DNA from: Thermoproteota archaeon
GTDB taxonomy: Archaea; Thermoproteota; Methanomethylicia; Culexarchaeales; B10-G16
Direction: 5' to 3'
Assembly (NCBI GenBank): GCA_003649185.1
Contig: QMRB01000005.1
Coordinates: forward strand, 1-52,438
Length of the DNA stretch: 52,438 nucleotides
Numbering within the stretch: position 1 is the stretch's first letter; each line of letters starts with the position of its first letter. Both the position numbers and the translations under genes were made by a program. Shown here piece by piece: positions 9,785-33,222 of this stretch. The notes below the pieces were generated by a model. It worked only from the letters and a program-made list of their open reading frames with translations, was not told where the DNA came from and did no database searches.

Positions 9785-9797
9785 GAGGTGAATGTAA

Positions 9798-11716: not shown

Positions 11717-11727
11717 GAGGTGAAAAT

Positions 11728-14592: not shown

Positions 14593-15324
14593 TTAAGTTT
14601 TGGCCGATGCTCTGCTCTTCACGTAGAGATCATATCCAATCAGAGTAACTAGAATTAGCAGTGCAATCCAGGGGAAGAATGTTTTATTCTCAGGTGCATA
14701 GGGCGGAACTCCCAATAGAAATTGACATCTACCAATGTAAAGCGACATCCTCGTCAAAATAGTGTAACCGTAGGCTGCACCGAATCCAGCCATCATAGTA
14801 TATCTTGCAAAAACGTTAATAGGCTTCCAAACTGGATGCGTCTGCCTAACTGTGAAAGTGAAGTATAACAGTACACATACAACCATTACAGCGGATAATA
14901 GATTGTTGAAGGCTGTCCAAGCATCCACACCTACAAGTTGAATTCCTGCAGTAGCTTTAACCTGTGTTAGAAGCTGTGCGAAAACCACAGTTCTAAAAGC
15001 TAATCCAAGTCCAGTTCCAGTTATAATGGCTAGAGGAATCCTGTAAAGCCAGAAATATTTTCTTGAGAATCTGAAGTACCAGAGCAGTCCTAAAAGAAGA
15101 GCGAAAGCGAAAGCTGTAACTCCTGTAGATGTGAGAGACCATCTCCCCTCCCACTGGCTTCTCATCCAATCCAAATCGTATGCAATTCCATAGCCTATGG
15201 CGCTTCCAATGAACATATGCTCTGCAAGCCTTGACCACGGATTCTCCCTATATAGGAAACTGTAAACAGCCAGGGTGAATAAAACTCCCAGAAAAGCTCC
15301 AAAATAGGTTGTGAAATCGCTCAT
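14593..15324 (-). CDS. Membrane module copy A, gene 4 (about seven membrane helices)
   Basis: I do not recognise the function of this 243-residue integral membrane protein. It is paralogous to the gene at 30175-30813: both share an N-terminal GA-x-x-G segment, YRENxxxRxAEH, a central hydrophobic block, LYFTFTV or MYFTFTV, RYTMM/RYILM and a GRxQ-L-L segment near the end. Copy A has an extra C-terminal helix. No heme-, Fe-S- or quinone-type motif is visible. The start (ATG behind GGAGGAGGA) overlaps the preceding gene by 4 bases. It is the last gene of the four-gene minus-strand operon. Confidence 0.75.
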   Translation of the reverse strand: MSDFTTYFGAFLGVLFTLAVYSFLYRENPWSRLAEHMFIGSAIGYGIAYDLDWMRSQWEGRWSLTSTGVTAFAFALLLGLLWYFRFSRKYFWLYRIPLAIITGTGLGLAFRTVVFAQLLTQVKATAGIQLVGVDAWTAFNNLLSAVMVVCVLLYFTFTVRQTHPVWKPINVFARYTMMAGFGAAYGYTILTRMSLYIGRCQFLLGVPPYAPENKTFFPWIALLILVTLIGYDLYVKSRASAKT

Positions 15325-16172
15325 TCCATTCTCCTCCTCCTTTTAGCGAAATATCCAATATTACCTATAATTACGAATGCTAGAACAAGTATATGTGAAG
15401 TTGATATGGCATCTGCAGCAGCAGTTGCAAGTTCAGGTCTGCCCAGAAGCTTCTCATATTCGGCTCCAGCTCTTAAACCTGGAAGCAGACCTAAACATTG
15501 TCCAGCTTGAACATAGGGAGCAACGGTTGGAGCCATAACTCCGATACATGCAACGAGCATTGGAACATGATAAGGCTCCCACCACTGTCTAACCCATTCA
15601 TCAGCCCCAGGAGTTCCAGTTTCAAGACTTATTAATATATCTACATCTTTAGCAGATTTTAAATGTTGCATTATCGGATACTGGCTGACAGGTTTTTTAT
15701 AAATATAATCTTTTGTAATGGTTCCCCAAATATCCCTTCCAAGAGCAGCCATAGCCTGCTCTCCTCCTGGAGCCCATCCCAGGAAGATCCAATCCTCACC
15801 GTAAACTTTATGATATGTTTGCTCCGGATTCAATTTATCTATAATCATTTTAGCTACTATTGGACCCTCATTCCACGTTGCGATAATTGCAAATTTTACA
15901 GGTCTCGAGAATAGATGATGGAATGTGGCAACGGCGATTGGATACAGTTCACCTAGAGCACTTAAACCGAAATCGAAGGATACGACAACCATCGATCCTG
16001 GAGGAAGCTTCTCAATAGCCTCATAATATGCGACGGTGCTGGGGCTTATGGAAATGGGTAATCCTATAGGGGAGATGAGCGGTGGAAGCACCACAATCCA
16101 TATTAACAGGTAAAGTATTCGTCTATCAATGTTTTCAAGTTTATCCCAGATTGTTTCACCCTCAGCCACCAT
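15321..16172 (-). CDS. Membrane module copy A, gene 3 (soluble alpha/beta domain between two membrane helices)
   Basis: This protein of about 283 residues has one membrane helix near its N-terminus (about residues 18-42), a soluble alpha/beta domain of some 200 residues, and a C-terminal helix ending in KRRRRME. It is paralogous to 30813-31679. Shared segments include an IGLP/LGLP-x-SIS boundary after the first helix, a DW-(I/V)-(F/Y)-(L/I)-G then GGE motif, LETGTPG versus SDTGDYG, VRQW/IRQW, and G-x-R-x-GAEYE-x-L before the last helix. The preferred start is ATG at 16172, behind GGAGGTGA and directly after the stop of gene 2. Function is unknown. Confidence 0.75.
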   Translation of the reverse strand: MVAEGETIWDKLENIDRRILYLLIWIVVLPPLISPIGLPISISPSTVAYYEAIEKLPPGSMVVVSFDFGLSALGELYPIAVATFHHLFSRPVKFAIIATWNEGPIVAKMIIDKLNPEQTYHKVYGEDWIFLGWAPGGEQAMAALGRDIWGTITKDYIYKKPVSQYPIMQHLKSAKDVDILISLETGTPGADEWVRQWWEPYHVPMLVACIGVMAPTVAPYVQAGQCLGLLPGLRAGAEYEKLLGRPELATAAADAISTSHILVLAFVIIGNIGYFAKRRRRME

Positions 16173-16173
16173 T

Positions 16174-16827
16174 CTACTCACCTCCACCCCTCAGATAGCC
16201 TCTCTCATATCCGGTCATAGCTCTAACTCCTAGAACTATTGCTCCCAAAGCACCTCCAATTAGAATTGCTCTCTGAGTGGACATGTTAGGTACATTGAAA
16301 AGCCAGTCACCTATAGTTCCGAAACCAGGCCAAACAGCAGTCCCAATAGGAGCATTCTTCAATAATAGAAGTGAACCTGCAACTAACAGTATGGTTGCCT
16401 CAAGCGACCTAGCCCTGAAGGCTCTATAGGCAGCGGAAGCTATGAAGAATGCTATAATCGAATACATGGTGCTTGACAACGGTGTCAAAACATTTCCATA
16501 GAGGAACTCGAATACTGAATTATCCAACCCTAAGCCTAACTCTCTGATTGGAAGCCCAAATATCAACATTATAACGAACATTGCAACCAGCGCTGTACTA
16601 TACTCCCATTGCGGTCTTCTCTTCATAATTCTTGGAATATGAAGTTGAAGTATAGCTATTGCACCTACAAATGTGGCTCCAGTACCCACAACCATTTGCC
16701 AGTTAACGAAAGTTGCTTGGAAATCTTCAACAGAAGCACCCAACGTGAAATAGTAGGGTAATATCTGTATCAATGCACATATGGCTGTAATTATTATTGG
16801 TATTTCAACACGTTTATACCATGCCAT
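16174..16827 (-). CDS. Membrane module copy A, gene 2 (multi-helix membrane protein)
   Basis: This is a 217-residue membrane protein with about six helices. It is paralogous to 31681-32325: both share the long identical stretch SAAYRAFRAR, then a helix LLVAGxLLLL, and a C-terminal helix before a Gly-rich tail. The repeated AYRAFRAR between helices is the most conserved part and is positively charged, so it probably faces the cytoplasm. The start has GGAGATGTGAG upstream, and the gene lies 4 bases after gene 1. No cofactor motif is visible and I do not recognise a characterised family. Confidence 0.75.
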   Translation of the reverse strand: MAWYKRVEIPIIITAICALIQILPYYFTLGASVEDFQATFVNWQMVVGTGATFVGAIAILQLHIPRIMKRRPQWEYSTALVAMFVIMLIFGLPIRELGLGLDNSVFEFLYGNVLTPLSSTMYSIIAFFIASAAYRAFRARSLEATILLVAGSLLLLKNAPIGTAVWPGFGTIGDWLFNVPNMSTQRAILIGGALGAIVLGVRAMTGYERGYLRGGGE

Positions 16828-16831
16828 AATC

Positions 16832-17611
16832 TCACATCTCCAAAAGTTTTACAATATAATTGGTTCCACTCAAACCCACTATTACGCCGAGAACTATAAG
16901 TGCAATTCCAATGAACTTGCCGATATCCTGTGCAACGATGCTTCCAACCATTGCAGGATCCTTAGATAGATAAGCGCCAGCAGCATAAATCTCCTCACCT
17001 ATCAAAGTATAGTCGGTTGCAACAACGAAGAATGGTATCTGATGAGTATTGGCGGTTCCAGAAACCTGTAATGCACCAACCCTCGCACCAGTCTCAGACA
17101 GCTGCAGAGACTCCGCCCAATAGGCACCGACCATGATGTTTGCTCCAGCCCTCTCCCTCTCCATCAAACTCATATAGCCCAGTGAATAGCCGAATTGGAA
17201 TCCTGAAAGATAAACTATATCTTCAGGTCTAAACTGTTCAGGTTTACCCTCCAATTTATAGGCAGTTTCAACAATCTCCCTTGCAATAGGATAAACTGAC
17301 ACCTGCCTTACAGGTACAATCACCCTTGTAGCATATCTTGCACAAAGTCTAGCCACATAGTTTAAGACGCTTAAACCTGCAATTGTCTGGGGACCGTATG
17401 TCGCATCTGAAAGTCCAGAAATGCCATGCGAACAAAATACAGGTCTACCCATCTCGGTGGCTCTTCCAATAGCCTCTTCAATGGCATCTAAACCTGAAAC
17501 CCTTCGAATTTCAGGAATATTGCCCTTCTCGCCGCGCTTGATAAAGTATAATGCAGACGCAGCCACTATCAATAGATATATTAATCCACTTACCCTTCCA
17601 GACTGTAACAT
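16832..17611 (-). CDS. Membrane module copy A, gene 1 (DUF6754-like, alpha/beta domain with membrane anchors)
   Basis: This 259-residue protein has one N-terminal helix (about residues 8-24), a soluble alpha/beta domain and one C-terminal helix (about 228-250). Its best signatures are DAIEEAIGRATEMGRPV, a GISG loop, LCARY, and a GTANTHQ-PF motif followed by DY-LIGEE-YAA-AYLSK. The gene at 32331-33140 has the same motifs. From memory it resembles proteins labelled DUF6754; this needs a profile search. It is the first gene of the operon, and a GAGGGATA ribosome site precedes the ATG. Conserved Glu, Arg, Thr and His residues suggest binding of a small ligand, but that is inference. Confidence 0.75.
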   Translation of the reverse strand: MLQSGRVSGLIYLLIVAASALYFIKRGEKGNIPEIRRVSGLDAIEEAIGRATEMGRPVFCSHGISGLSDATYGPQTIAGLSVLNYVARLCARYATRVIVPVRQVSVYPIAREIVETAYKLEGKPEQFRPEDIVYLSGFQFGYSLGYMSLMERERAGANIMVGAYWAESLQLSETGARVGALQVSGTANTHQIPFFVVATDYTLIGEEIYAAGAYLSKDPAMVGSIVAQDIGKFIGIALIVLGVIVGLSGTNYIVKLLEM

Positions 17612-17730
17612 ATTATATCCCTCAAAATACGAAAATATAGGCCACTGAACTTATTTGTATAATGGGAAATATATAAGAGTTATCGCAGATGAAGAATAAA
17701 AAATATAAGAAAGTAAAGTTTAAAGGTTAA

Positions 17731-17962
17731 AATCGTTTTAAGCAGCATGACAGAAAATTACAGGACAGACTTAGCATCAAAATCAGCCATATTAAGGATA
17801 AAGAAAGCGAAATCAACGAAAACATTCTTCTCTCCAACTAATAAATCGAAATAGTCAATGAAGCATGAAATGATTATAAAGGGAAAGTAGCTATACTAGA
17901 TTATATTTTAAGCTGCATCCCCCTTTCAGTTAAAGATTTAAATTATGGGAAAATTGAAGAAG
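17731..17962 (+). pseudogene. Intergenic region 17612-17962 with a possible decayed reading frame
   Basis: The spacer between module A and pycB has no intact gene. One plus-strand frame from 17731 reads like protein: an amphipathic segment with ISHIKDKESEINEN, interrupted by TAA TAA at 17839-17844 and TGA at 17866-17868. The same frame then continues with AILDYILSCIPLSVKDLNYG up to and past the 3' end of pycB. All pieces stay in one frame, as expected from point-mutation stops. AT-rich composition could also produce this by chance. The rest of the spacer holds the module A promoter area and nothing else I can support. Confidence 0.25.
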
Positions 17963-19369
17963 TTAAAAATACTTTAATTTCACATGATATTCTTTCCCAT
18001 CCATCAAAACTTTATATGAACCTTCCCTTAAAGCTGAAATCTTCTCCCTATATTTAAAGAATTTTAAAGCAGTTTCAGGAAAGAGTGCATAGGTCAAATA
18101 ATCCTCTTCCTTTTCCACATATTTTTTCGGCAGTTCCCTTTTAATTTTGGGAAGTATTGGTTGAAGAAGATCTGCAGGTCGACATTTAATCGGTTTCTCC
18201 CCTTCCAGCAATCTATTTTTAAGTGTTTCATTTATAGGTGCAGGAGGCCTACCATACAAGCCTTTAACGTAAGCCTTCACCTCATTTATTATCATTTTAT
18301 ATCTTCCGAAAAGCACGTTTAGAACTGCCTGTGTACCCACAATCTGTGAGAGAGGTGTTACAAGAGGAGGCCATCCGAGATCACGTCTCACCTTAGGAAT
18401 CTCCTCCAAAACCTCCGTTAACCTCTCCTCAGCATTCTGCTCCTTCAACTGTGCCAATAGATTACTGTACATTCCTCCAGGTATCTGATGTTCAAGAACT
18501 CTTACATCTACAGGAGGATTCTTCAAAGCATAATCATATTCGCCATATTTTCTTCTAATCATCCAAAAATATCTTGAAATTTTATATAGAAGATTCAGGT
18601 TAAGTTTAGGATCGAAAACTGTATTTTTAAGCATTACAGCCATGGTTTCAGCCGGTGAATGAGAAGTATACATAGACATGGATGAAACTGCACAATCTAT
18701 GAAGTCGGCGCCAGCCTCAACAGATTTAATTAAAGTTACTGGAGCCATTCCACTCGTAGTATGTGAGTGAACATCCACGGATATTTTAACCTCACTCTTA
18801 ATCCTGCTCACCAATTCATATGCCATGCTTGGAGTGAGAATTCCAGACATATCTTTAATGCATATTGAATCCACCTCCATGGCTGCAATATCCTTAGCCA
18901 GATCAACATAATAGCTAAGTGTATGAATAGGGCTTATAGTGTAAACCATGCACACCTGTACTTCAGCTCCAATTCTCTTTGCAGCTTTAACAGTGGTTTC
19001 AAGATTTCTCAAATCGTTTAAAGCATCAAATATTCTAAATATATCTATACCGTTCTCATAGGCCTTCTCAACGAACTCTACGCAGAGATCATCTGGATAG
19101 TGATGATAACCCACAAGGTTTTGGCCTCGAAGAAGCATTTGAAGCTTAGTTTTCCTAACTCTTTCACGAATTATTTTAAGCCTCTTCCAAGGATCCTCCA
19201 TCAAAAATCTTAAGGGTGCATCGAATGTGGCGCCACCCCAAACCTCAAGCGAATAGAATCCAACTTTATCCATCTCCTCGAGAATGGGAATCATGTCGCG
19301 TGTTCTAAGCCTAGTGGCGAGAAGTGATTGGTGAGCATCCCTCAAAGTTAAATCCACAATTTTAACCAT
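17963..19369 (-). CDS. pycB: Pyruvate/oxaloacetate carboxyltransferase (PycB / OadA carboxyltransferase domain)
   Basis: This 468-residue protein has the HMGL-like TIM barrel and the conserved C-terminal region of carboxyltransferases. Visible residues are DLTLRDAHQS (metal Asp and Arg), GGATFDAP, the Lys in IKDMSG that is carbamylated in relatives, and the metal-binding DVHSHTTSG. The biotin-carrier domain is encoded separately, 3 bases upstream. It could work as pyruvate carboxylase subunit B, oxaloacetate decarboxylase alpha, or a transcarboxylase 5S subunit. No biotin carboxylase (PycA) or membrane decarboxylase gene is in the window, so the partner must be elsewhere. Confidence 0.88.
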   Translation of the reverse strand: MVKIVDLTLRDAHQSLLATRLRTRDMIPILEEMDKVGFYSLEVWGGATFDAPLRFLMEDPWKRLKIIRERVRKTKLQMLLRGQNLVGYHHYPDDLCVEFVEKAYENGIDIFRIFDALNDLRNLETTVKAAKRIGAEVQVCMVYTISPIHTLSYYVDLAKDIAAMEVDSICIKDMSGILTPSMAYELVSRIKSEVKISVDVHSHTTSGMAPVTLIKSVEAGADFIDCAVSSMSMYTSHSPAETMAVMLKNTVFDPKLNLNLLYKISRYFWMIRRKYGEYDYALKNPPVDVRVLEHQIPGGMYSNLLAQLKEQNAEERLTEVLEEIPKVRRDLGWPPLVTPLSQIVGTQAVLNVLFGRYKMIINEVKAYVKGLYGRPPAPINETLKNRLLEGEKPIKCRPADLLQPILPKIKRELPKKYVEKEEDYLTYALFPETALKFFKYREKISALREGSYKVLMDGKEYHVKLKYF

Positions 19370-19372
19370 AAT

Positions 19373-19843
19373 TTAACCCTCTCCTCCAATTATCATTAAA
19401 GGTGAACCCACCTTCACATTCTCCTCTTCACCAACTAGAATCTCCCTTACAATTCCATTGATGGGAGATTTAACCTCAACCATCAATTTCATAGCCTCCA
19501 TGGTTAGAAGCGGATCATCCTTCTTCACCTTGCAGCCAACTTTAACATGGATTTTAACGATTCTGCCAGCCACTCTAGCCCTTATCAATCTTCCCTTACC
19601 GCCAATTGCTTCCCTTCCACCCTTCTCAACTTTAAGCTTATCCTTCACTGAATATACTTCCAAACAGTTATCCTCAAGTTTAACATTATACTGTACTCCT
19701 TCCAATCGAAATTGAACAGTATTCTCCGATTTAACTACATTTTCAAAGATTAAGAGTTCACCGTTCACTTCAACTTGGAAATTGCAGTTCGAAATCTCAT
19801 CGACACATTCCAAATGTTTAATTAAACCTATAATGGAAGCCAA
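19373..19843 (-). CDS. Biotin carboxyl carrier protein
   Basis: This 156-residue protein has a C-terminal biotinyl domain with MEAMKL, the biotinylated Lys being at about residue 119; the usual motif is EAMKM. A small beta-rich domain precedes it, as in the gamma/BCCP subunits of split carboxylases. The start is a TTG with no clear ribosome site, so the true start is uncertain. It is transcribed together with the carboxyltransferase gene 3 bases downstream and would present carboxybiotin to it. The first gene on the other side (19944) is divergent. Confidence 0.85.
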   Translation of the reverse strand: MASIIGLIKHLECVDEISNCNFQVEVNGELLIFENVVKSENTVQFRLEGVQYNVKLEDNCLEVYSVKDKLKVEKGGREAIGGKGRLIRARVAGRIVKIHVKVGCKVKKDDPLLTMEAMKLMVEVKSPINGIVREILVGEEENVKVGSPLMIIGGEG

Positions 19844-19943
19844 TCTGCTTTTAATTTGAAAGCCCCCTTAACATGCTTTCTAAATCTACCATCAATCTTA
19901 AATTGGCATCGGCTATATAGGTTTTGATGGCCGGTGACATTCA

Positions 19944-21704
19944 ATGCCAATATATGGAAAGTTTAAAATGAGAAGTTTCGGTGAGAATGCCTTACTGGTG
20001 GAGGTTTCAGATGAAATCAGCGTAGAGGCAAATGAAATAATAATCGATTTAAATAATAGAGTTAAAAAAACTGTGAAAGGAATTGTTGAAACAGTTCCAG
20101 CATATACTACGCTTCTAGTAATCTACAATCCTTTAAAAATAAATTTTGAAGAACTAACTGAAAAAATAAGAGAAGAGGAAGAGAAGATTAGAAAATTGAA
20201 GAGAAAGAGAAGAAATGGTCGGAGAAGAATAGTGGAGATTCCGGTGATTTATGGCGGAGAATTTGGACCAGACCTAAAAGATATAGCTGAACATGCAGGT
20301 ATAAGCGTTGAAGAAGTTGTCAAAATACATTCAAACCGAATCTACAGAGTTTACATGATAGGCTTCATACCTGGATTCCCATATATGGGAGAAGTGTCGG
20401 AGAAGATAGCTGCACCCCGATTGAAGAATCCTAGATTAAGGGTTCCAGCGGGATCTGTAGGCATCGCCGGAAAACAGACAGGTATATATCCATTTGAAAG
20501 TCCAGGCGGATGGAGAATAATAGGAAGAACACCTATAAGGCTCTTCAACCATGAAAAGAAGCCTCCCACCTTACTGAAGGTAGGGGATCACGTAAAATTT
20601 AGACCAATAGAAAGAGAAGAATACAACAGTTTACTGGCTAAGAGTAAAATGAAAATTGAAACAGAAAAATTTAAAGGTATACCGGCATTGAAAGTATTGG
20701 CAGCCGGTCCAGGAGTTACAATACAAGATCTTGGAAGAAGCGGCTACAGGGAGTATGGCGTTCCCTCCTCAGGAGCCCTAGATTTAGAATCTCTAATCTA
20801 CGCGAACATACTTGTCGGAAACAATATTTCATCAGCATGTATAGAGATTTTTCAAAGCTCCATTGAAATGGAAGCTTTAGAAAACATAGTCATAGCCATA
20901 ACGGGAGCAGAAGTGGAAGGAGAAATTGACGGTGAAAAAATCAGGGAATGGGAGGCAATTCCAATTAGAAAAGGTGGTAGATTAAGCATTCACAGCATGG
21001 TGAAAGGGATTGTAGCATACATTTCAATAGCTGGAGGAATCTCCGAGCCTATAATACTGGGAAGCAGATCCCACTATCTGAGAGGAAAGATTGGAAGAAG
21101 AATACGGGAAAACTCAACCATATATTTAGTTAAAAATAGATTTGAGGAGCTGGTTAAAGTTGCACCGGCAAGAAGACTGGAGAAGAAGACATGTATGGAT
21201 AGTGGAGAATTGAGAGTGATGCCGGGACCACATGAAGAAATCTTCAAGATAGAAGCCATAGACGAATTCTATAAGACAGAATTCAAAGTTTCAAGCAGCA
21301 TTGACAGAATGGGATATAGATTGGAAGCTGAAAAACCGAAATATTTGAAAGGTGTTGGAAGAATGATAAGTTGCGGTACAATTCCAGGTGCAATACAGAT
21401 ACCTCCAGATGGAAATCCAATAGTATTAATGATGGATGCCCAGACAACTGGAGGATATCCAATAATAGGAAAGTTGATAATTCCGGATTTATGGAGAATC
21501 TCCCAAATGGAACCTGGAAAAAAGATAAATTTCAAAAAGATTAACAGAATGGAAGCATTGAAAATTCTCAGAGAAAAGGAGGAGGAATTTAAGAGAACGG
21601 TGTCGAGATTAGATGAAGAATGTAAAAGATTTCTAAAGGAATTTGAACATTTAACCGTAAAATATGAGGAAAAAATTTTAGATTGCTGGCTTAAAAAACT
21701 ATGA
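19944..21704 (+). CDS. PxpB-PxpC (KipI-KipA) fusion, 5-oxoprolinase subunits B and C
   Basis: This 586-residue protein joins two domains usually encoded by neighbouring genes. Residues about 1-225 are KipI/PxpB-like, with GFIPGFPYMG, PRVPAGSVGIAG-type and YPFESPGGW motifs. Residues about 240-540 are KipA/PxpC-like, with GPGVTIQDLGRSGYREYGVP and the later MMDAQTTGGYP. PxpABC hydrolyses 5-oxoproline with ATP; the third subunit, PxpA, is absent here. A charged, possibly coiled-coil C-terminal tail of about 45 residues is added. GGTGA lies at good spacing before the ATG. The gene is divergent from the biotin carrier and its end overlaps the HMG-CoA reductase gene tail to tail by 6 bases. Confidence 0.88.
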   Translation: MPIYGKFKMRSFGENALLVEVSDEISVEANEIIIDLNNRVKKTVKGIVETVPAYTTLLVIYNPLKINFEELTEKIREEEEKIRKLKRKRRNGRRRIVEIPVIYGGEFGPDLKDIAEHAGISVEEVVKIHSNRIYRVYMIGFIPGFPYMGEVSEKIAAPRLKNPRLRVPAGSVGIAGKQTGIYPFESPGGWRIIGRTPIRLFNHEKKPPTLLKVGDHVKFRPIEREEYNSLLAKSKMKIETEKFKGIPALKVLAAGPGVTIQDLGRSGYREYGVPSSGALDLESLIYANILVGNNISSACIEIFQSSIEMEALENIVIAITGAEVEGEIDGEKIREWEAIPIRKGGRLSIHSMVKGIVAYISIAGGISEPIILGSRSHYLRGKIGRRIRENSTIYLVKNRFEELVKVAPARRLEKKTCMDSGELRVMPGPHEEIFKIEAIDEFYKTEFKVSSSIDRMGYRLEAEKPKYLKGVGRMISCGTIPGAIQIPPDGNPIVLMMDAQTTGGYPIIGKLIIPDLWRISQMEPGKKINFKKINRMEALKILREKEEEFKRTVSRLDEECKRFLKEFEHLTVKYEEKILDCWLKKL

Positions 21705-22970: not shown

Positions 22971-23136
22971 AAAGATTCCCCTATGAGAATTAAACTCACA
23001 AGTATTAAAGCTTATTATATAATTCTATAAAAGGAAAGCTTGAATTTAAAATCGCCGTCAAAAGTTCAACTATATTAAATAATTGATTAAGCGAAAAAAA
23101 TATCTTTACATTGGAAAAATGATTTCGGGATAGAAT

Positions 23137-23910: not shown

Positions 23911-23912
23911 AG

Positions 23913-24875: not shown

Positions 24876-24969
24876 ATATAACCTTTAATTTTTCTATAAA
24901 ATTTCTCCACAAATCAACAGTTACTAATATAATGGTAAAGTTATATTGATGTAGAGGTAGGGGAGAAGT

Positions 24970-26919
24970 GTGAAGATAGGAGTATACATATGTCATTGCG
25001 GAAAGAATATAGCTGGAGTTGTAGATGTTGAAAAAGTTGCCAAAGAAGCTGAAAAATTTAAACATGTAAGTATTGTACGCCACTACACATTTATGTGCTC
25101 AAAGAAAGGACAGGAATTGATAAAAGAAGATATTAAAAGTGGAAGAGTGGATAGAGTTGTAGTTGCAGCATGTTCACCCAAAATGCATGAAGAAACTTTC
25201 AGAAGAGCAGTTGAAGAGGCAGGGTTAAATGGATATCTACTTGAGATTGCAAATATAAGGGAACAATGCTCCTGGGTTCATGGAGAAAACCCAAAAGAAG
25301 CCACCGATAAAGCCATAGATTTAATTCATGCAGCAGTGATGAAAGTATCCAAATATAAACCGATAGAGAAGAGAGAATTCAAAGTTAGAAGAGAAGTTCT
25401 CATCATAGGTGGAGGAATTTCAGGTATAAGAGCAGCATTAGATTTAGCGAAAGCAGGATTAAAAGTCTACCTGGTTGAAAGAGAACCCACAATAGGAGGA
25501 AATATGGCTAGAATCGATAAAACATTTCCAACCTTAGACTGCTCTCTATGCATATTGACCCCTCTAATGAACGAGATCTCAACAAATAGAAATATAACAT
25601 TACTTACAAACAGTGAAATATTAAATGTGGAAGGCAGAGTCGGAGACTTCAAAGTAAAAGTATTAGTGAAACCTAGATATGTGAGGATGGATCGCTGCAT
25701 CTCATGTGGACTATGCGCTGAGAAATGTCCAGTAAAAGTTCCAGACGAATATAATTGTGGATTAAGCATGAGAAAAGCTATATATAAGCCGTTTCCACAG
25801 GCAATTCCAAGCACATATATAATCGACTCTGAAAACTGTTTGAAGCTAAATAAAAATATATGTGGAATATGCATGAAGATCTGTCCAACACAAGCAATCA
25901 ACTATGAGGATAAAGCGGTGGAGATGGAGCTTAAAGTTGGAGCTATAATAATAGCCACCGGATATGAACTCTTAGATCCAAGAAAGATAAGTGAATATAA
26001 TTATGATGGATTAAAAGACATTTACACGGGCATGGAGTTTGAAAGAATATATTCGGCTGAAGGACCTACCAAAGGCAGAATAATCTCGCCGAGAAATGGA
26101 AAAACTCCAAGGAAAATTGGAATAATATTATGTGCAGGGTCAAGAGATGAAAGATATCTACCATACTGCTGCAATATAGGATGCATGGCTGGACTTAAAC
26201 ATGCATATTACATTGCCACTTCAAATCCAGAAGCAAAAGTATACATATTCTACACGGATATTAGAGCTACTGGAAAGGGATATGAAGAATTCTATAGAAG
26301 AATTAGAAAAATGAAGAACATATTCTTCATAAGAGGAAAACCCATGGAAATAGAGGAGGAAAATGGAAAATTAAAAGTGGATATATATGATACAAATGCG
26401 GGGGAACTTTTCAGATTTAAACTGGACATGATAATACTTGAGACCGGATTAATTCCAAATCCAAATGTGGAAAAGATAATTTCAACCCTAAAAGTTTCAA
26501 GAAGCATGGATGGATTCATATTGGAAGCCCATCCGAAACTCAGACCGGTTGAGACAGCTATAAGAGGAATCTATGTCTGCGGATGTGCACAGGGATTAAA
26601 AGATATACCTGCAAGCATAGCTCAAGCATCTGCAGCTGCAGCGGAAACTATGAAACTTCTCTTAAAGGGAAAGGTGGAGGCTGAACCATACACTATTGAA
26701 ATAGACGAAGAGAAATGTAGTGGATGTGGAATTTGCACAGCCGTCTGCCCATACAATGCCATAAGAGTTGATTCTGAGAGAGGAATAGCTGAAGTTGACG
26801 AAGCCTCATGCAGAGGCTGCGGAACATGTGCAGCTGCATGTCCAACCAAAGCTATAAATCAAAGAAACTTTACAGACGAAGTAATCTCATCAGCATTGAC
26901 CGCAATTCTCAGAAGATGA
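24970..26919 (+). CDS. HdrA paralog of the EtfBA operon
   Basis: This 649-residue protein is a second HdrA without the MvhD tail. It shows VYICHCGKN at the start, FAD motif GGGISG near residue 145, LDCSLC near 190, CISCGLCAEKCP, a Cys-rich insert with CGICMKICP, and two C-terminal [4Fe-4S] motifs (CSGCGICTAVCP and CRGCGTCAAACP). It aligns closely with the HdrA at 7394 over its whole length, which supports the 7394 start there. Start is GTG behind GGGGAG. Its position after etfBA suggests an ETF-HdrA electron pathway, perhaps to the HdrCB-like pair encoded at 28200-29592 on the other strand. Confidence 0.92.
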   Translation: MKIGVYICHCGKNIAGVVDVEKVAKEAEKFKHVSIVRHYTFMCSKKGQELIKEDIKSGRVDRVVVAACSPKMHEETFRRAVEEAGLNGYLLEIANIREQCSWVHGENPKEATDKAIDLIHAAVMKVSKYKPIEKREFKVRREVLIIGGGISGIRAALDLAKAGLKVYLVEREPTIGGNMARIDKTFPTLDCSLCILTPLMNEISTNRNITLLTNSEILNVEGRVGDFKVKVLVKPRYVRMDRCISCGLCAEKCPVKVPDEYNCGLSMRKAIYKPFPQAIPSTYIIDSENCLKLNKNICGICMKICPTQAINYEDKAVEMELKVGAIIIATGYELLDPRKISEYNYDGLKDIYTGMEFERIYSAEGPTKGRIISPRNGKTPRKIGIILCAGSRDERYLPYCCNIGCMAGLKHAYYIATSNPEAKVYIFYTDIRATGKGYEEFYRRIRKMKNIFFIRGKPMEIEEENGKLKVDIYDTNAGELFRFKLDMIILETGLIPNPNVEKIISTLKVSRSMDGFILEAHPKLRPVETAIRGIYVCGCAQGLKDIPASIAQASAAAAETMKLLLKGKVEAEPYTIEIDEEKCSGCGICTAVCPYNAIRVDSERGIAEVDEASCRGCGTCAAACPTKAINQRNFTDEVISSALTAILRR

Positions 26920-26922
26920 AAA

Positions 26923-28131
26923 ATGCAAATAAAAATATTATATGGAGAGAAGACAGTTAAATGCGAAATTCCTGAAAGAAACCTAATTAAAACGCTATCG
27001 TTAAACGATAAGTTTGAAAAGTCTTTCACGAATAGAAGATGTCAGGGATTAGAGGAATTTCTAGAGAAAAATAACAATTATAATTGTAAATGATCATGAA
27101 AGGGCAACTCCAACATTCACTATTCTTGGAGACATATACAGCAAGATTAAAGATAAAAGATTTGAAATTCTCATTGCAAGCGGAGCACATAGACCTCCAA
27201 GAGAAGAAGAGTTGAAATGGATTCTGGGAGAAAAATATTGGAAGTTAAAGGAGAAAATAAAGATACATAACGCCGAAAAACCAGCTATATTGGAAAAACG
27301 AGATTTAAAAACCAGGTATATGTGAATAGGAGAATTTTGGAGGCTGAAAAAATAATAGTGATAGGATCTGTGGAGCCACATTACTTTGCAGGATATACAG
27401 GTGGAAGAAAATTTCTACTTCCAGGAATCTCGAGATATGAAACCATAGAGTATAATCATAAATTTGCATTGGATAAAAATGCGCAACCATTAAGGTTGAA
27501 GGACAATTCAGTACATGAAGACATGATGGAGGCACTTAAACTTCTAGACAGAGAAGAAGACATATATTCCATAATGACTGTAATTAATAGAAGAAGAGAA
27601 ATCATAAAGCTGGAAACGGGAAACATAAATAAAACATTCATGAAATGCGTTGAAAAAGCGAAGAAATTTTATACAAGGAGAATAGAGGAGAAAGCTGACA
27701 TCATAATTGCAGTGGCTGAATCATCCTTCAACATATCACTCTACCAAGCACATAAAGCCATAGAAAACGTTAAATCAGCGTTAAAGGATGAAGGAATCAT
27801 AATCCTCGTAGCTGAATGTAAAGAAGGGATAGGTCCAAGAAACTTCTACAATCTACTCTCATCCACAAGAAAACCTGAAGAAATAGTTAGAAAAATAGAG
27901 GAAAATTATAGATTGGGATATCATAAAGCAGCTAGACTGGCTGAATTAATGAAGAAAGCTGAAATATGGGCTGTAACATTACTTGAGAAGAACATTCTTA
28001 CCAAGATAAACTTGAAGCCATTTACAAATCTTCAAAAAGCAATAGATGAAGCTTTAAAGGAGAAGGGGAGAGATGCTGAAATCATGCTGATAAATGAAGC
28101 TGCAACCATAATCCCAATACTTGGCAATTAA
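26923..28131 (+). pseudogene. larA: LarA-family nickel-dependent racemase, broken by two frameshifts
   Basis: The gene starts at ATG 26923, 3 bases after hdrA. The first frame ends at 27091, but the LarA protein continues in the next frame from the A5 run at 27067-27071 (ITIIIVNDHERATPT, then ASGAHRPP). It returns to the first frame near 27290-27296, where one G seems missing, and runs on with VNRRILEAE to 28131. LarA residues that hold or protonate at the nickel-pincer cofactor are present: His in GAHRPP, His in EPHYFAGY, Lys in GGRK, His in YNH. Corrected length is about 402 residues, normal for LarA. Relatives racemise lactate or other 2-hydroxyacids. It is either newly inactivated or the assembly has errors here. 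Confidence 0.75.
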
Positions 28132-28199
28132 ATTTCCAAATGAATATAAAAGCATTCACATTCAAGACAATTATGAAATATTTATAAGAAAATGAAATT

Positions 28200-29069
28200 T
28201 TAATTTAAATATCCAAGCCGCCTTAACAATACTGCCACCGGAGATTTATTCAAGTGAAGTGCAACTTTTTCAGGCTTCAAACCTAAAGCCAAACCCAGAA
28301 GTTGAGGATAATATAGTACAGGAATATCGGCTTTAACATTGGAAGCCTTTGCAGAATCCATGTAATTTGTCTCCATAATTTCACCTCCATGTGGACATGA
28401 AATTATAATTCCATCACATGAACTATCTGCAGCCTCTTTAATTCTATTTCCACTCAAAGTTAATCCAACATCCATACTTGTCTTTGAGATAGCCCATCCA
28501 CAACAATCTAAATGGTTTCTTCCCTCAGCCCCTAAAACCTCAACCAATTCTAGAAGCTTTAAAGGTTTCTCATTACTGTCCATCTTGGGATGATCTCCAG
28601 GTCTAAAGGAATAGCATCCGGGATGAATGGAGAAGCAGTATCCTTCAAGCTTCCTCTTCAAATGGGAACTTATCTTCTCCAATCCTATATCATCATGCAA
28701 CACTTCGATTAAATGTTTAAATTTAAGATTCCCCTTAAACTCTAAATCTTCCTCCTTTAACAATTCATTAACCCATTCTAAAAGTTCTGAATTGCCAGAT
28801 AAAAGTCGAATAGCATAGGTTAAAGATTCATGGCACCAATTACAGAGTAGAAGTGTTGGAGCATCAAAATCTTCGAGAACCGACATAAGTCTAGCGGACA
28901 GATAGATCCAGCCATAAGAGTTTAAACTTCTCAAGGGAAAACCGCAACAATTAACATTCTCCGGATAAATTATCTCAACTCCCAGTTCATTTAGAACCGT
29001 CAAGGCAGAAAATTCATAGGCATATTGCTGGGTGGCTGATAGACATCCTGGAAAGAAAACATATCTCAT
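28200..29069 (-). CDS. HdrB-like CCG-domain protein linked to membrane module B
   Basis: This HdrB-like protein of about 289 residues has two CCG domains. The first shows VFFPGC, VNCCGFP and CNWCHESL; the second shows HPGCYSF, DCCGWA and SCPHGGE. The last motif lacks the second Cys of the usual CPxC, so the C-terminal cluster may have one ligand fewer. The preferred start is ATG at 29069, giving MRYVFFPGC; an upstream TTG at 29093 overlaps the HdrC-like gene. It lies directly after the HdrC-like gene and closes the operon that begins with membrane module B. Confidence 0.83.
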   Translation of the reverse strand: MRYVFFPGCLSATQQYAYEFSALTVLNELGVEIIYPENVNCCGFPLRSLNSYGWIYLSARLMSVLEDFDAPTLLLCNWCHESLTYAIRLLSGNSELLEWVNELLKEEDLEFKGNLKFKHLIEVLHDDIGLEKISSHLKRKLEGYCFSIHPGCYSFRPGDHPKMDSNEKPLKLLELVEVLGAEGRNHLDCCGWAISKTSMDVGLTLSGNRIKEAADSSCDGIIISCPHGGEIMETNYMDSAKASNVKADIPVLYYPQLLGLALGLKPEKVALHLNKSPVAVLLRRLGYLN

Positions 29070-29073
29070 CTTC

Positions 29074-29592
29074 TCATACATCCTCCTTTTCAAACGCCTT
29101 CATAACGTTCATTTGAAATTTTTCTAAATTTTTAGGTCCCTTGAGAAGTGGAAGATTTAGATTTGAACGATCATATTCAATGCTATCTGAACCTAGAACT
29201 TTCATCTCCTCCTGAATAAACCCCCTCTCCAACAGGGTTGACAGCATCTTCAAGTAGGATTGTGGAACACTCTCACCCTTCAAAACTGCAAGATTTCTCA
29301 AAGCTATAAAAACTTCTACAGGTGAAACTTTCTGTGGACATGCATCCCTACATTTCTGGCATTGAGTACAAGCCCAAATCAAATCGGACTTTAAAAGTGC
29401 AGGAATCAAGCCCAATCTAACCCTCTCCACAACCCTGCTCGGATAATTCTCCATTAAAACCATAACCGTGCAACCGCTTGTACATTTACCACACTGGAGA
29501 CAGGCTAAAGGATCTAACTCTAATGGAAACTTTAAAAGTTCATCTAGAAGTTTCATATCTGCAAGTTCGCTTAGAAGCGAAACCTCAACCAT
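29074..29592 (-). CDS. HdrC-like 2x[4Fe-4S] protein linked to membrane module B
   Basis: This HdrC-like protein of about 172 residues has CLQCGKCTSGC near residue 31 and CTQCQKCRDACP near 78, followed by the family's SPVEVFIALR segment. The first motif lacks the usual Pro after its last Cys. A C-terminal extension of about 60 residues is unlike the short HdrC at 9798. Start is ATG at 29592, behind GGGGAGG; a TTG at 29601 would be too close to that site. It begins 55 bases after the last membrane-module gene on the same strand, so co-transcription is likely. Confidence 0.83.
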   Translation of the reverse strand: MVEVSLLSELADMKLLDELLKFPLELDPLACLQCGKCTSGCTVMVLMENYPSRVVERVRLGLIPALLKSDLIWACTQCQKCRDACPQKVSPVEVFIALRNLAVLKGESVPQSYLKMLSTLLERGFIQEEMKVLGSDSIEYDRSNLNLPLLKGPKNLEKFQMNVMKAFEKEDV

Positions 29593-29647
29593 TAAATTCA
29601 ACCTCCCCTTAGATAAATCAGCAACCTTGATTTAAATATTCCCTGGA

Positions 29648-30091
29648 TCATAATCCGCCAAATGGGATAAGCAGCCCCAACTCATAGATTATAATATATG
29701 CGATGGAGTTGAGAAGGAGGAGGAGAGCTAATAGATCACCTCTCCCAAAGGAACCTTTAAAGAAGACGTATTTATAGGTGAAGTATTCAACGGAAACCAT
29801 ACATACAAAGAAGATTAAAGCGTAAACTACAATGTAAATAATATAGCTTAAACTGTAGATGAAGAATAGTAGATCTTTAAAGTGGAAAATTTGAATATAC
29901 ATTACAGTGAAGAACAAAGTTGAGCCTAGAAAATTGGCTGCCAACAATTTAAATATAAAAGGAAAATTTCTTGAAAACTTTCCTAATAGGAGAATGGAGA
30001 AAAACACTTTAACAATGGAAGATGCAGCGACGAGATATAGGAATGCTGAAAACAGTAATTCAACATATGATGAAGCATAAATCTCTATCAA
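29648..30091 (-). CDS. Membrane module copy B, extra gene 5 (four membrane helices)
   Basis: I do not recognise this 147-residue protein. It has four hydrophobic helices separated by short loops and is rich in Phe, Tyr and Ile. A basic-aromatic loop (YFTYKYVFFKGSFGRG) lies between helices 3 and 4. It has no counterpart in copy A. Start is TTG behind GGTGG. It sits 83 bases after gene 4 and 55 bases before the HdrC-like gene, so it could be the membrane anchor that joins the module to the HdrCB pair; that is inference. Confidence 0.65.
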   Translation of the reverse strand: MIEIYASSYVELLFSAFLYLVAASSIVKVFFSILLLGKFSRNFPFIFKLLAANFLGSTLFFTVMYIQIFHFKDLLFFIYSLSYIIYIVVYALIFFVCMVSVEYFTYKYVFFKGSFGRGDLLALLLLLNSIAYIIIYELGLLIPFGGL

Positions 30092-30174
30092 TATTCCACC
30101 TAAAATAATTATAATGACAATAGCAATATGAAAGTTTCCACAATAAAATTAAATAAAGAAATGGAAGTTTAAGG

Positions 30175-30813
30175 TTAGGGCCATGGAATAATTTTGAACA
30201 CTTGGAGTAGATATTGAACTCTTCCTGAAAGCATTGCCATTCTGAACTGAACAGTATTTCCAAAATATACTCCCAATCCCAGCATTAATATGTATCTTCC
30301 AAGCCTCGTCGGATAGTAATATGCACCTTTATGTTCAACGGTGAATGTAAAATACATTGTTACAAGGATGAAGCCCAATCCAATCCATATATAGTTAAAC
30401 CAGTCTAATGGAGAACCATTTATCGGAGGCGTTATTGAGCCTAACACTTGATCTATAATTGAAGCCGTCAACGACCCTCTTATGGCTACACCGAAACCTA
30501 TTCCGACAAGGAATGAAACAGTATATCTCGCCATCCATCTAACCTGTTTAAATGGCAGAGTATAAAGCATTAAACCTAAAATTATTGGAACAATGTAGGT
30601 TAATTGACCATTGCTCAGTGGAGCTATAATATTATTCTGAATCATGCTTACAGCTTGAACTATTGAAACGGCAAATGTAACAGCTATATATGTGTGTTCA
30701 GCGAATCTGAAGACTAAATTCTCCCTGTAAAGAATATAGCTGTAGATGGCTATAGTTAGAAATGCTCCAACCCATGCACCTAAAATTTCCACAGGTTCAG
30801 TTGGATATGGCAT
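30175..30813 (-). CDS. Membrane module copy B, gene 4
   Basis: This is a 212-residue membrane protein, paralogous to 14593-15324. Shared features are a GAW-x-GAFLTIAIY N-terminal helix, YRENLVFRFAEH, a central hydrophobic pair, TMYFTFTV, and SGRVQYLLQ close to the C-terminus. It lacks the additional C-terminal helix of copy A. The ATG overlaps the stop of gene 3 by one base (TAATG), with GGAGGTGGAGG upstream. No known cofactor-binding motif is visible. Confidence 0.75.
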   Translation of the reverse strand: MPYPTEPVEILGAWVGAFLTIAIYSYILYRENLVFRFAEHTYIAVTFAVSIVQAVSMIQNNIIAPLSNGQLTYIVPIILGLMLYTLPFKQVRWMARYTVSFLVGIGFGVAIRGSLTASIIDQVLGSITPPINGSPLDWFNYIWIGLGFILVTMYFTFTVEHKGAYYYPTRLGRYILMLGLGVYFGNTVQFRMAMLSGRVQYLLQVFKIIPWP

Positions 30814-31679
30814 TATCCTCCACCTCCCTTCTTCCCTCTAGTCATAAAGTAGCATATATTCGCCAACAGTACGGCGAATATTGTTAGGAGATGTGAAACG
30901 TTCAATGCATCCATACGTTGAGTTCCCTCTCCCAATGATCCTATAAGCCTCTCGTATTCAGCTCCTCCCCTAACACCTTTAAGTGCACCTACAGCTAATC
31001 CAGCATTATAGTATGGTATGAATGTGGAATAGTTCATAGCTATTCCCACCTCAGCAACCTTCGTCTTATATCTTACAGCCCACTGTCTAATGTAGTAGTC
31101 TCCATAGTCACCTGTATCTGAAGTTACCACTAATGCTATGTCAGCTGCATTGTGAACTTTTTGAAGCAGTGGAATTTGATCTGCAGGAGTGCCGAACTTG
31201 TCGGCTTTAATTACGGAGTGAAGATCATCCGCCAACTGTGCAACTGCAGCTTCACCTCCAGCTAAAAGTCCAATGTAAACCCAGTCCACTCCATATTTAT
31301 AGTCTCCAGAGCCAACCTGTTCATTAGCCCACTTAAGCTGCGGAACCCTTGCCTTTATAGCATTCATCGTCATATCCACATCCGTATAGAAGCCCCAGAA
31401 GATTATTTTGACCCCTCTGGAAACGAGATGCTTCGTTACAGCTACAAGTCCTGGAAGAACTTCAGGCCATGCACTTACACCTGCCTGTATACCCACCACT
31501 GCCACATCATCTGGACCTAAAGTTTCAATATAATTATATAGGGTGAGCGTCGTCTCCGAAATGGAGACCGGCAGACCCAATGGATATAGGAAGGGTACCG
31601 CTAGAAGGATGAATAGAGTCCAATATAGAACTCGTCTATCCAATTCTCCAAGTTTAACCCATATACTCTTCTCACCCAT
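30813..31679 (-). CDS. Membrane module copy B, gene 3
   Basis: This protein of about 288 residues is paralogous to 15321-16172: an N-terminal helix (about residues 20-40), a soluble alpha/beta domain and a C-terminal helix ending in a Gly/Lys tail. Shared segments include the LGLPVSIS boundary, DWVYIGLLAGGE, a TSDTGDYGDYYIRQW motif, and GVRGGAEYERLIG before the last helix. Asp and Tyr residues are more frequent in copy B. The preferred start is ATG at 31679, behind GGAGGTG and just after the gene 2 stop; a TTG at 31700 would overlap gene 2. Function unknown. Confidence 0.75.
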   Translation of the reverse strand: MGEKSIWVKLGELDRRVLYWTLFILLAVPFLYPLGLPVSISETTLTLYNYIETLGPDDVAVVGIQAGVSAWPEVLPGLVAVTKHLVSRGVKIIFWGFYTDVDMTMNAIKARVPQLKWANEQVGSGDYKYGVDWVYIGLLAGGEAAVAQLADDLHSVIKADKFGTPADQIPLLQKVHNAADIALVVTSDTGDYGDYYIRQWAVRYKTKVAEVGIAMNYSTFIPYYNAGLAVGALKGVRGGAEYERLIGSLGEGTQRMDALNVSHLLTIFAVLLANICYFMTRGKKGGGG

Positions 31680-31680
31680 C

Positions 31681-32325
31681 TCATCCACCTCCACCTTCAA
31701 CTACACCTAGAAATCTCTTCTCAGCACCCATCAGAACTCTTATTCCGAAGAGGATTAATCCGAAGGCTGCAGTGAAGAGCAGAGCTCTCATAGCAGGAGT
31801 TTCACCATTCAACTGTAACCATTCATTTATCGCTGGAATCTGATTCCAAATAACCTCTCCAACAGTACAGTTTCCAAGCATTACAAGTATTCCAGCTATT
31901 AATAGTATGCTTGACTCCAAGTTTCTAGCTCTAAAAGCCCTGTAAGCAGCTGAGAATATGTAGAATCCAGTAGTTGCATATAGAGTTGCACCCAGCGGAG
32001 TATAAACCCAAGTGAAACTCCATTTATAGAAACCTGTAGACTGACTTATCAATCCGGCAACTGTTACTATAAAAGTCAATATGAACAGCCAGGCGCTGAA
32101 ATACCATCTTCCAGGAGTTCTTCTACGAATATGGTTTAAATGAACCCTTGCAGCTGTTAAAAATCCCAATGCCAATGCAAACCATCCTATACCTGTAGCC
32201 CATGTCTGAAATGTTTGAACAGCATTCTGAACCTCTGAAATATCGAAGAAGTAGCCGAAGAGGGTTAAACCCATAACCACACCTGTTATAAATATGAATA
32301 TTTCAGGTCTCCTCGCAACACTCAT
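31681..32325 (-). CDS. Membrane module copy B, gene 2
   Basis: This membrane protein of about 214 residues has six helices and is paralogous to 16174-16827. The identical SAAYRAFRAR loop is present, followed by NLESSILLIAG and a last helix ending in a Gly-rich tail. The start used is ATG at 32325 with GGTGAT upstream; ATG at 32331 or GTG at 32337 would extend it and overlap gene 1. The loop between the first two helices contains HLNHIRRRTPG, a basic turn also seen in copy A (HIPRIMKRRP). Function unknown. Confidence 0.73.
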   Translation of the reverse strand: MSVARRPEIFIFITGVVMGLTLFGYFFDISEVQNAVQTFQTWATGIGWFALALGFLTAARVHLNHIRRRTPGRWYFSAWLFILTFIVTVAGLISQSTGFYKWSFTWVYTPLGATLYATTGFYIFSAAYRAFRARNLESSILLIAGILVMLGNCTVGEVIWNQIPAINEWLQLNGETPAMRALLFTAAFGLILFGIRVLMGAEKRFLGVVEGGGG

Positions 32326-32330
32326 ATCCA

Positions 32331-33140
32331 TCACCACTTCAAGAAGGAGCTTACCACAGGTATCCCTACAACTTCAAGAATGAAGCCTAGCAGAGTTATA
32401 GCTAGAAGAATGAATTTTATCCAGTCTTCACTGGCTATGCTTGCCACCTGCATAGGCTCTTTGGAGATATAGGCTGCGGCTGCATATAATTCCTCTCCGA
32501 TGAGAACATAGTCGCATGTGGCAACTATGAATGGAAGCTGATGTGTATTGGCGGTTCCACCTATCTGCATTGCACCTATAAAGTTTGCAGCCTCCCCTAT
32601 AACTACAGATTCATAGTATAATCCGCCGATCATCATGTTAGCCGCAGGCCTCTCCCTCTGAAAAGTTCCAAGTATCGCTGTAACCATTGTAGATTGGCTT
32701 GGCTGATAGCGAATCATCTTAGGATCAAATCTTTCAGGTTTACCTTCCTTCAAATAGGATAATCTTAAAGTCTCCTCCATCAATGGAATAGCGTCAGCTT
32801 GAGCCATATTGATTATCAACGGTACATCATATCTTGCACAGAGTTCTCCAACATATCCGAGAATACTTATAGAAGCCACCATTTGGGGACCTTGCCACGA
32901 AGATAATGAGCCGCTTATACCTGGAGTATAATGTACAGGTTTACCCATCTCAGCAGCTCTACCCACAGCCTCCTCGATGGCATCTATCGCTATAAGCCTT
33001 CTCATTTTAGGCGGTCTTCCACTCTTCGACATACTGTATGCAGCATAGAATAATACTAGTACAAGTAGTAGAACTATTAGACTTGAACCTCTACCCTCTA
33101 TTAGAATGCTCTGCACACTTAACATTAGAGCTGTCTGCAC
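32331..33140 (-). CDS. Membrane module copy B, gene 1 (DUF6754-like)
   Basis: This protein of about 269 residues is paralogous to 16832-17611. It has an N-terminal helix, a soluble alpha/beta domain with AIDAIEEAVGRAAEMGKPV, GISG, GPQ and LCARY, then IGGTANTHQLPF, CDYVLIGEELYAAAAYISK, and a C-terminal helix. The preferred start is GTG at 33140, behind GGAGGAG; a TTG at 33155 is possible. It is the first gene of a probable seven-gene operon that ends with HdrC- and HdrB-like genes. A TATA-like stretch (ACTATAAAAT on the minus strand) lies about 25-35 bases upstream. Confidence 0.75.
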   Translation of the reverse strand: MQTALMLSVQSILIEGRGSSLIVLLLVLVLFYAAYSMSKSGRPPKMRRLIAIDAIEEAVGRAAEMGKPVHYTPGISGSLSSWQGPQMVASISILGYVGELCARYDVPLIINMAQADAIPLMEETLRLSYLKEGKPERFDPKMIRYQPSQSTMVTAILGTFQRERPAANMMIGGLYYESVVIGEAANFIGAMQIGGTANTHQLPFIVATCDYVLIGEELYAAAAYISKEPMQVASIASEDWIKFILLAITLLGFILEVVGIPVVSSFLKW

Positions 33141-33222
33141 ATTCAACTCCTCCAATTAAATATTTTATAGTTTTATGTGAAACTGATGCTAAATATGTGT
33201 AAAATTCCGTTTAAAAGCATTA

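Follow-up and report, generated by a model that had tools for sequence, protein, structure and literature searches.

A four-gene DUF6754 membrane module of archaea and bacteria and its two candidate partner proteins

Introduction

The MutL/GlmL proteins (PF13941) are known as accessories to methylaspartate mutase and in ornithine degradation. In the energy-coupling factor (ECF) transporters, a shared energising unit serves many substrate-specific membrane units, as described in PMC3246461. In the known biotin decarboxylases, it is the hydrophobic beta subunit that removes CO2 from carboxybiotin and transports Na+ (PMC8473912). Here we analyse a stretch of 52,438 nucleotides (nt) from a Thermoproteota archaeon (contig QMRB01000005.1, positions 1 to 52,438; hereafter the window), which holds two copies, A and B, of a four-gene membrane module. 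We number the module genes F1 to F4 in the order of transcription, and F1 belongs to DUF6754 (PF20539), a family that Pfam lists as a domain of unknown function.

We consider it highly probable that F1-F4, a MutL/GlmL-type protein (below, MutL) and a protein that we call c7 make up one functional system. What that system does is a more tentative matter, and the reading we prefer is that complexes of F1-F4 with MutL and c7 are substrate-specific membrane modules, probably transporters, that share one ATPase unit. The main gain over the first-pass annotation, which was made from the letters of the window, is a system larger and more widespread than first noted, and one made testable by two dedicated partners, whose genes lie outside the window and had been missed.

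Results

Two copies of the module in the window

All eight module open reading frames (ORFs) are present in the window on the minus strand, copy A at 17611-14593 and copy B at 33155-30175, and the spacing between module genes ranges from -20 to +4 nt. The first-pass annotation had picked out the four overlapping genes and their full-length paralogues in the same order, and BLASTP bears this out. Between A and B, identity is 44% over 231 amino acids (aa) for F1 (E 4.7e-68), 34% over 216 aa for F2 (E 2.3e-36), 36% over 294 aa for F3 (E 6.7e-56) and 30% over 199 aa for F4 (E 5.4e-24), a likeness far above chance for all four proteins. The quoted motifs DAIEEA-GRA-EMG, GTANTHQ-PF, SAAYRAFRAR and FTFTV are likewise found in both copies. 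The proposed coordinates stand for copy A but not for the end of copy B, where 33140 is an in-frame GTG and F1 starts at a TTG at 33155.

F1 of copy A (16832..17611) matches PF20539 at E 1.7e-84 and 283.4 bits, and F1 of copy B (32331..33155) at E 2.9e-70 and 236.8 bits, against a curated cut-off of 27 bits; both other copies in the genome and the relatives tested also belong to DUF6754. The first-pass annotation needs amending in that protein 1 is a member of a named family. Its failure to place the proteins among known complexes holds for F2, F3 and F4, none of which reaches the curated cut-off of any Pfam or NCBIfam model. F2, which carries the SAAYRAFRAR motif in copy A, lies at 16174..16827 (copy A) and 31681..32337 (copy B), F3 at 15321..16187 and 30813..31700, and F4, with FTFTV in copy A, at 14593..15324 and 30175..30813. 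A defence system was considered and rejected, as no PADLOC model was matched by ten proteins, copy A among them, at E 0.01. The literature searched held no mention of DUF6754 or PF20539 that we could find.

Distribution and linkage of the four families

The window genome carries two further copies of the module, on contigs C38 and C40, and hence four in total, and its synteny groups are shared between different genera. For these reasons we reject a merely local duplication of the window locus: what had been described as duplication in one locus is two of the four paralogues in this genome, and the module is widespread among bacteria. A phage or plasmid origin was also rejected, copy A F1 finding no match in plasmids and the F1 profile none in a viral contig scan.

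Our archaeal sample comprised 61 genomes, the window genome and 60 relatives. DUF6754 was found in five of them, all of one order, with 4, 5, 7, 6 and 7 F1 matches; two other genomes of the same order, 42% and 45% complete, gave no DUF6754 match. Twenty-seven of the 29 archaeal F1 genes (27 of the 29 lying outside the window) stand in complete, ordered F1-F2-F3-F4 sets, the exceptions being one at a contig edge (L038) and one remnant (L055); a further locus, L048, has a short F2 ORF of 127 aa. When named genomes were scanned, at least 428 F1 relatives from many phyla came up, and the best 80, ranked by similarity to the archaeal F1 of the window, were kept as loci. Four of these 80 are from Bathyarchaeota and the others from bacteria, including Bacillota (Symbiobacterium, Fermentithermobacillaceae), Cloacimonadota, WOR-3/Stahlbacteria, Zixiibacteriota, Poribacteria, Fermentibacteria and Planctomycetota. 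They contain 96 F1 ORFs, of which 82 are in complete sets and 9 are truncated where the locus or contig ends; three have no F2-F4 adjoining (L088, L092, L112), one has an unusual order (L105) and one is an overlapping duplicate (L084). These counts are anchored on F1 genes, with F2-F4 searched beside F1.

Over 109 complete sets the median intergenic gaps are 12, 2 and 0 nt, six gaps being 200 nt or more, and double modules, tandem or convergent, occur at L059, L064, L078, L095, L104, L122, L125, L127 and L131. F1 is also present in 40 of 149 Planctomycetota genomes, some with contigs of several megabases, and 32 further genomes have 1 to 11 F1 matches each. The four families travel together, in the same order, in archaea and bacteria. 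Neither outcome that the first-pass annotation had named as telling against an undescribed system, namely hits of all four families to a characterised complex or families that do not co-occur elsewhere, was found.

MutL and c7 as candidate partners

Several bacterial modules are preceded by c11, c6, a MutL-family protein (PF13941) and c7, and the gene order c11-c6-MutL-c7-F1 recurs in L083, L095, L098 and L133. In the five archaeal carriers, the genomes that the archaeal MutL search covered, one gene in each matches PF13941 over its full length and above the cut-off, at about 402-409 bits. The c7 gene is found in exactly the same five of the 61 archaeal genomes as DUF6754 and in no others, so that one MutL and one c7 stand against the four to seven F1 matches of each genome. 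It lies directly behind MutL in the four archaeal genomes where the contig extends far enough; in the window genome it is on a different contig from MutL, and in genome G001 two contigs each hold a part of it, two short weak matches being found besides. Beyond this sample, c7 is present in 48 of the 50 genomes that yielded F1 loci, or 38 of 40 once the ten whose sequences went into the c7 alignment are removed.

The same association was seen in the 149 Planctomycetota genomes, one of which had contributed to that alignment; 40 of them have F1, 37 have c7 and 42 have PF13941. F1 and c7 occur together in 35 genomes, F1 only in 5, c7 only in 2 (one of them a short contig-end fragment, G162) and neither in 107 (Fisher p 2.8e-26), and for F1 and MutL the corresponding counts are 35, 5, 7 and 102 (p 9e-22). 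These p values overstate the strength of the association, since genomes within a phylum are not independent samples, and the agreement between archaea and bacteria is the better argument for co-occurrence. Where c7 and MutL share a contig they are at most 1.5 kb apart in 30 of 32 genomes, and c7 and F1 are as close in 24 of 28, the latter from a hand-copied list with one or a few F1 places per genome. The three orphan F1 genes are what might be cited for a gene order conserved by chance, with no joint function; set against an order kept across archaea and bacteria, and against co-occurrence with unlinked c7 and MutL genes in archaea, we regard that explanation as extremely improbable.

MutL is about 620 aa long and matches its Pfam family at E 1.8e-128. 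It contains the stretches DVGSTTTK and GLGGATTN, which we take to be phosphate motifs of the actin-like ATPase superfamily, and it is probably an actin-fold, ATP-binding protein that may also use ATP. GlmL-type NCBIfam models match it at 1e-62 to 1e-67, and the scores of one archaeal and one bacterial protein against GlmL TIGR01319, 143.8 and 168.8 bits, do not reach the cut-off of 204.05. For c7, of about 375 aa, we found a weak barrel-sandwich similarity to RnfC/NqrA: the L115 protein scores 20.5 bits (E 5.2e-4) against RnfC_N (PF13375), short of the cut-off of 25.6, and the match to NqrA_N is weak (E 0.014).

These likenesses favour a different reading, in which F1-F4 would be a membrane enzyme or redox complex in need of reactivation, with MutL as an ATP-using repair chaperone, as for B12 mutases, and c7 as an electron or cofactor subunit like RnfC/NqrA. 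The same can be said of a MutL ORF in L060, which matches a B12-binding domain weakly and under the cut-off (E 0.0079), and of the setting of copies A and B amid Hdr, ETF and acyl-CoA dehydrogenase genes. The failure of MutL to reach the GlmL cut-off speaks against this reading, and in the scanned F1-F4 and c7 proteins no domain of the B12-binding, Fe-S or flavin kind passes the Pfam cut-off; moreover, one of ten annotated neighbours of archaeal modules from several groups is a redox protein (a flavin reductase). We give such a complex little chance. By eye, no B12-dependent mutase subunit was seen beside MutL among the ORFs of L138, L140 and L141 (up to 1.5 kb on each side), the genomes not having been searched for mutases, and a literature search on MutL and B12 found nothing on membrane modules.

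In L083, L090, L098, L123 and L133, the run of MutL, c7 and F1-F4 stands behind c8 genes that by eye resemble glycine dehydrogenase GcvPA/GcvPB, and in L083 a c13 gene behind F4 looks, again by eye, like a lipoate ligase.

Topology and folds of the module proteins

The first-pass annotation had described proteins 1 and 3 as each carrying a soluble alpha/beta domain with a membrane helix on either side, and the second and fourth proteins as multi-helix, and both descriptions agree with our results. In AlphaFold models of copy A, F1 (predicted local distance difference test, pLDDT, 82.5, from 12 sequences) and F3 (pLDDT 95.8, from 61 sequences) are modelled as Rossmann-like sheets between two membrane helices, from which we draw no function. 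Hydropathy gives copy A F3 a third segment (residues 208-226), which the model builds into the domain as one strand and one helix; copy B F3 has two hydrophobic segments around a 220-aa stretch. F2 has 6 hydrophobic segments in copy A and 4 in copy B, and F4 has 5 in both.

The distribution of lysine and arginine suggests how these domains are oriented. In 96 of the 109 complete modules these residues are richer after the first helix of F1 than before it (the opposite in 5), and in 98 they are richer before the first helix of F3 than after it (the opposite in 1); each gene was taken to begin at the first start codon that follows a stop, and some N-termini may therefore be overlong and add noise to the counts. 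On this charge pattern, the F1 domain is predicted to be cytoplasmic and the F3 domain extracytoplasmic, on opposite sides of the membrane. F1 is also the best conserved module protein between paralogues, with a ratio of 0.50 against 0.40-0.42 for the others, as would be expected of the part that faces a shared motor.

The F1 and F3 models have a similar order of helices and strands. Homology between the two was considered and is not claimed, as the hhalign values of 26.1 and 20.6 are not clear of the values that 26 unrelated profiles reach (24.9 and 23.5 at most), and an earlier all-against-all comparison of the four families was likewise weak; nor is homology claimed for F2 and F4 (E 0.017). 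For neither F1 nor F3 did sequence searches return a significant relative of solved structure. The best fold match is Sir2 for F1 (Z 11.1, 145 residues aligned, root-mean-square deviation 3.8) and MT0777 for F3 (Z 10.1, 140 aligned, 3.4), both only about 1 Z above a series of unrelated Rossmann-like proteins in broadly mixed lists. RCK/TrkA-type ion channel domains are among these many Rossmann-like matches and were counted neither for nor against any reading, and the lack of a transporter subunit as the top match is not informative.

Many bacterial F1 proteins outside Bacillota have an N-terminal arm. The arm exceeds 80 aa in 48 of the 109 modules, 43 of these having a hydrophobic N-terminal segment, and Fn3 was matched over cut-off in one of two arm-bearing F1 proteins scanned; such an arm would be extracellular, consistent with a cytoplasmic F1 domain. 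The longest F1, of 974 aa, has a very long arm before DUF6754 (L111:5844-8768 and L118:5844-8768). Arms of this kind are what a cell-surface assembly, sensing or secretion machine might have, in which F1 arms and F3 domains would bind surface partners and the actin-fold protein would drive assembly. We think such a machine rather improbable, as archaeal F1 and most Bacillota F1 proteins are short, including those of the highest-copy genomes (9 to 11 matches), and as the neighbours tested include metabolic enzymes.

An orphan biotin carboxyltransferase beside copy A

Directly upstream of copy A, on the same strand, lies a gene for an OadA/PycB-type carboxyltransferase (17963..19369, minus strand; PF02436 and PF00682), preceded by one for a biotin carrier protein (BCCP; 19373..19843, minus strand; PF00364) with an EAMKLM motif, presumably the biotinylation site. 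OadA adjoins copy A F1 in all five archaeal carriers, with gaps of about 70-350 nt, and BCCP precedes it in the four whose contig extends that far. Three of the five carriers have a completeness of 90% or more and a contamination of 5% or less. None gave a match for the biotin carboxylase C domain (found in 13 of 14 controls), for OadB (PF03977; 2 of 14 controls) or for Carboxyl_trans (12 of 14 controls). OadA and BCCP are therefore an orphan pair with no known partner, and a transcarboxylase was rejected as the explanation, Carboxyl_trans being unmatched in all five genomes.

This arrangement invites the idea that copy A supplies the membrane part of a biotin decarboxylase: OadA would load the biotin carrier with a carboxyl group, F1-F4 would release CO2 and perhaps pump an ion in place of OadB, and other modules would partner other soluble enzymes. 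An acyl-CoA dehydrogenase gene (33309..34598, minus strand; assigned by Pfam) occupies the equivalent place by copy B, directly upstream of its F1 in all five genomes with gaps of about 140-160 nt, which favours the same idea. In the 80 other loci, however, phmmer matched neither the OadA nor the acyl-CoA dehydrogenase of the window, and BCCP was matched once, in L089, and the biotin decarboxylase is for this reason kept as a rival. It also leaves MutL and c7 unexplained, and F1-F4 have no Pfam similarity to OadB; we rate its probability as low. The earlier suggestion that the two copies are versions for two partners or substrates fits these distinct conserved neighbours.

Other neighbouring genes

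A small membrane protein without a Pfam match is encoded downstream of copy B (29648..30091, minus strand), and phmmer finds relatives of it in the copy-B loci L050, L051, L052 and L055. The last of these (L055:8625-9816, genome G001) is the copy B remnant mentioned above; it consists of F1 and a fused F2/F4 ORF, has no F3, and is still adjoined by a full-length acyl-CoA dehydrogenase ORF. Other archaeal module groups have as neighbours an AsnC-type ligand-binding protein, a GDPD phosphodiesterase, a DUF885 protein or amidohydrolases. Directly behind one archaeal module, in four of four genomes, stands an ORF of 82-84 aa (L032:8513-8761, with orthologues in L030, L033 and L034), which in L032 is a lone Lrp/AsnC ligand-binding domain.

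Amidohydrolases make up 11 of 73 neighbours within 3 kb of Bacillota and Bathyarchaeota modules and none of 48 farther away (p 0.0028), in 8 of the 26 loci tested, which were picked from the 80 after amidohydrolases had been noticed there, so that both loci and class are partly post hoc. Of the 80 near and 49 far proteins, the test took 73 and 48, the omitted ones being MutL, c7, c6 and c11 genes and one ordinary L060 gene (4594-5475); the full set of both again gives 11 and 0. Further amidohydrolases lie beside the archaeal modules L046, L053/L054 and L056. Paralogues that stand beside different small-molecule enzymes and share one ATPase-like partner form the pattern that we would expect of a transporter family with a common motor.

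Two other parts of the window deserve mention. Copy A lies close behind a region (380-13404) whose genes, named by eye, resemble a cluster of Candidatus Culexarchaeia with Ehe hydrogenase, HdrB, GcvH, HdrA2B2C2 and SdhA; the published cluster comprises NiFe hydrogenase, HdrB, an ion antiporter subunit, GcvH, HdrA2B2C2 and SdhA, with CdhA also listed (PMC9723716), and we saw no CdhA in the window. On this likeness the window probably comes from a member of the same group. The consulted part of PMC9723716 contains no mention of the module that we could find. At 27322-28131 is a LarA-like ORF without most of its N-terminal domain, as the Pfam match begins at profile position 147 of 204.

Discussion

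In the reading that we prefer, F1-F4 would form one membrane complex, with a Rossmann-like domain of F1 in the cytoplasm, one of F3 outside, and F2 and F4 as a helical core. The complex would work with two cytoplasmic proteins encoded elsewhere in the window genome, the MutL/GlmL-type actin-fold protein and c7 as a barrel-sandwich adaptor. Because one MutL/c7 pair would serve several modules, the modules may be interchangeable partner- or substrate-specific units on one shared motor, in the manner of ECF S components, though built from unrelated proteins. Each would most likely move a different small organic solute, which F3 might capture outside as F1 contacts the motor. Complex formation, ATP use by MutL and transport activity are all steps that we infer. 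The most specific form of this proposal, a class of shared-motor importers in archaea and bacteria, with a MutL-type actin-fold ATPase and a barrel-sandwich adaptor and unrelated to ABC or ECF transporters, is in our judgement unlikely.

A number of observations weigh against shared-motor transport. F1-F4 matched no transporter family over cut-off in Pfam or NCBIfam, and F3 has just one Rossmann-like domain, unlike binding proteins of the two-lobed kind. Relatives in the MutL/GlmL family are known as helpers of B12 mutases and not of transport systems. The frequent N-terminal arms of bacterial F1 and the three F1 genes without F2-F4 beside them count on the same side. Several c7 matches in some Bacillota genomes mean that the one-to-many ratio is not universal, and c7 went unmatched in two F1 carriers, a 0.7-Mb Bathyarchaeota genome (G069) and a 5.2-Mb Poribacteria genome (G076), and in 5 of the 40 F1-bearing Planctomycetota, whose genome completeness was unchecked. 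The amidohydrolase test is small and partly post hoc, with 3 of its 11 hits from L068 and 2 from L072, and outside Bacillota and archaea no plain catabolic theme was seen by inspection, the neighbours there being untested.

There are up to 11 matches per genome and many phyla are involved, yet DUF6754 goes unnamed in the literature searched. If the modules are transporters, the uptake capacity of many uncultured groups has been misjudged; if they are enzyme partners, the orphan OadA gains its missing half; and MutL would acquire a function beyond B12 enzymes. An experimental test looks possible, since among the carriers are a genome that bears the label Symbiobacterium thermophilum (L060), which we take to be a cultured species, and Planctomycetota with multi-megabase contigs.

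Comparison with known systems

DUF6754 as a Pfam name covers F1 and neither F2-F4, MutL nor c7. With the MutL/GlmL family the system shares a full-length Pfam match, and it differs in that its MutL, at about 620 aa, falls under the NCBIfam GlmL cut-offs and is linked to c7 and a membrane module. The weak profile match of c7 to the N-terminal barrel-sandwich of RnfC/NqrA stays below cut-off, and c7 has no Fe-S or flavin domain match. Copy A resembles the Na+-pumping biotin decarboxylases (OadB/GcdB/MmdB) in standing behind OadA and a biotin carrier: of the OadABG pump, the alpha carboxyltransferase and biotin carrier are present (window 17963-19843), and the beta subunit PF03977 is found in none of the five genomes. 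The Pfam scan of F1-F4, MutL and c7 found no ATPase, T or S component of the ATP-binding cassette (ABC) and ECF transporters, from which the system differs in that its candidate ATPase is actin-fold. Its likeness to the ECF transporters would lie in the mode of working, one shared energising unit for many membrane units.

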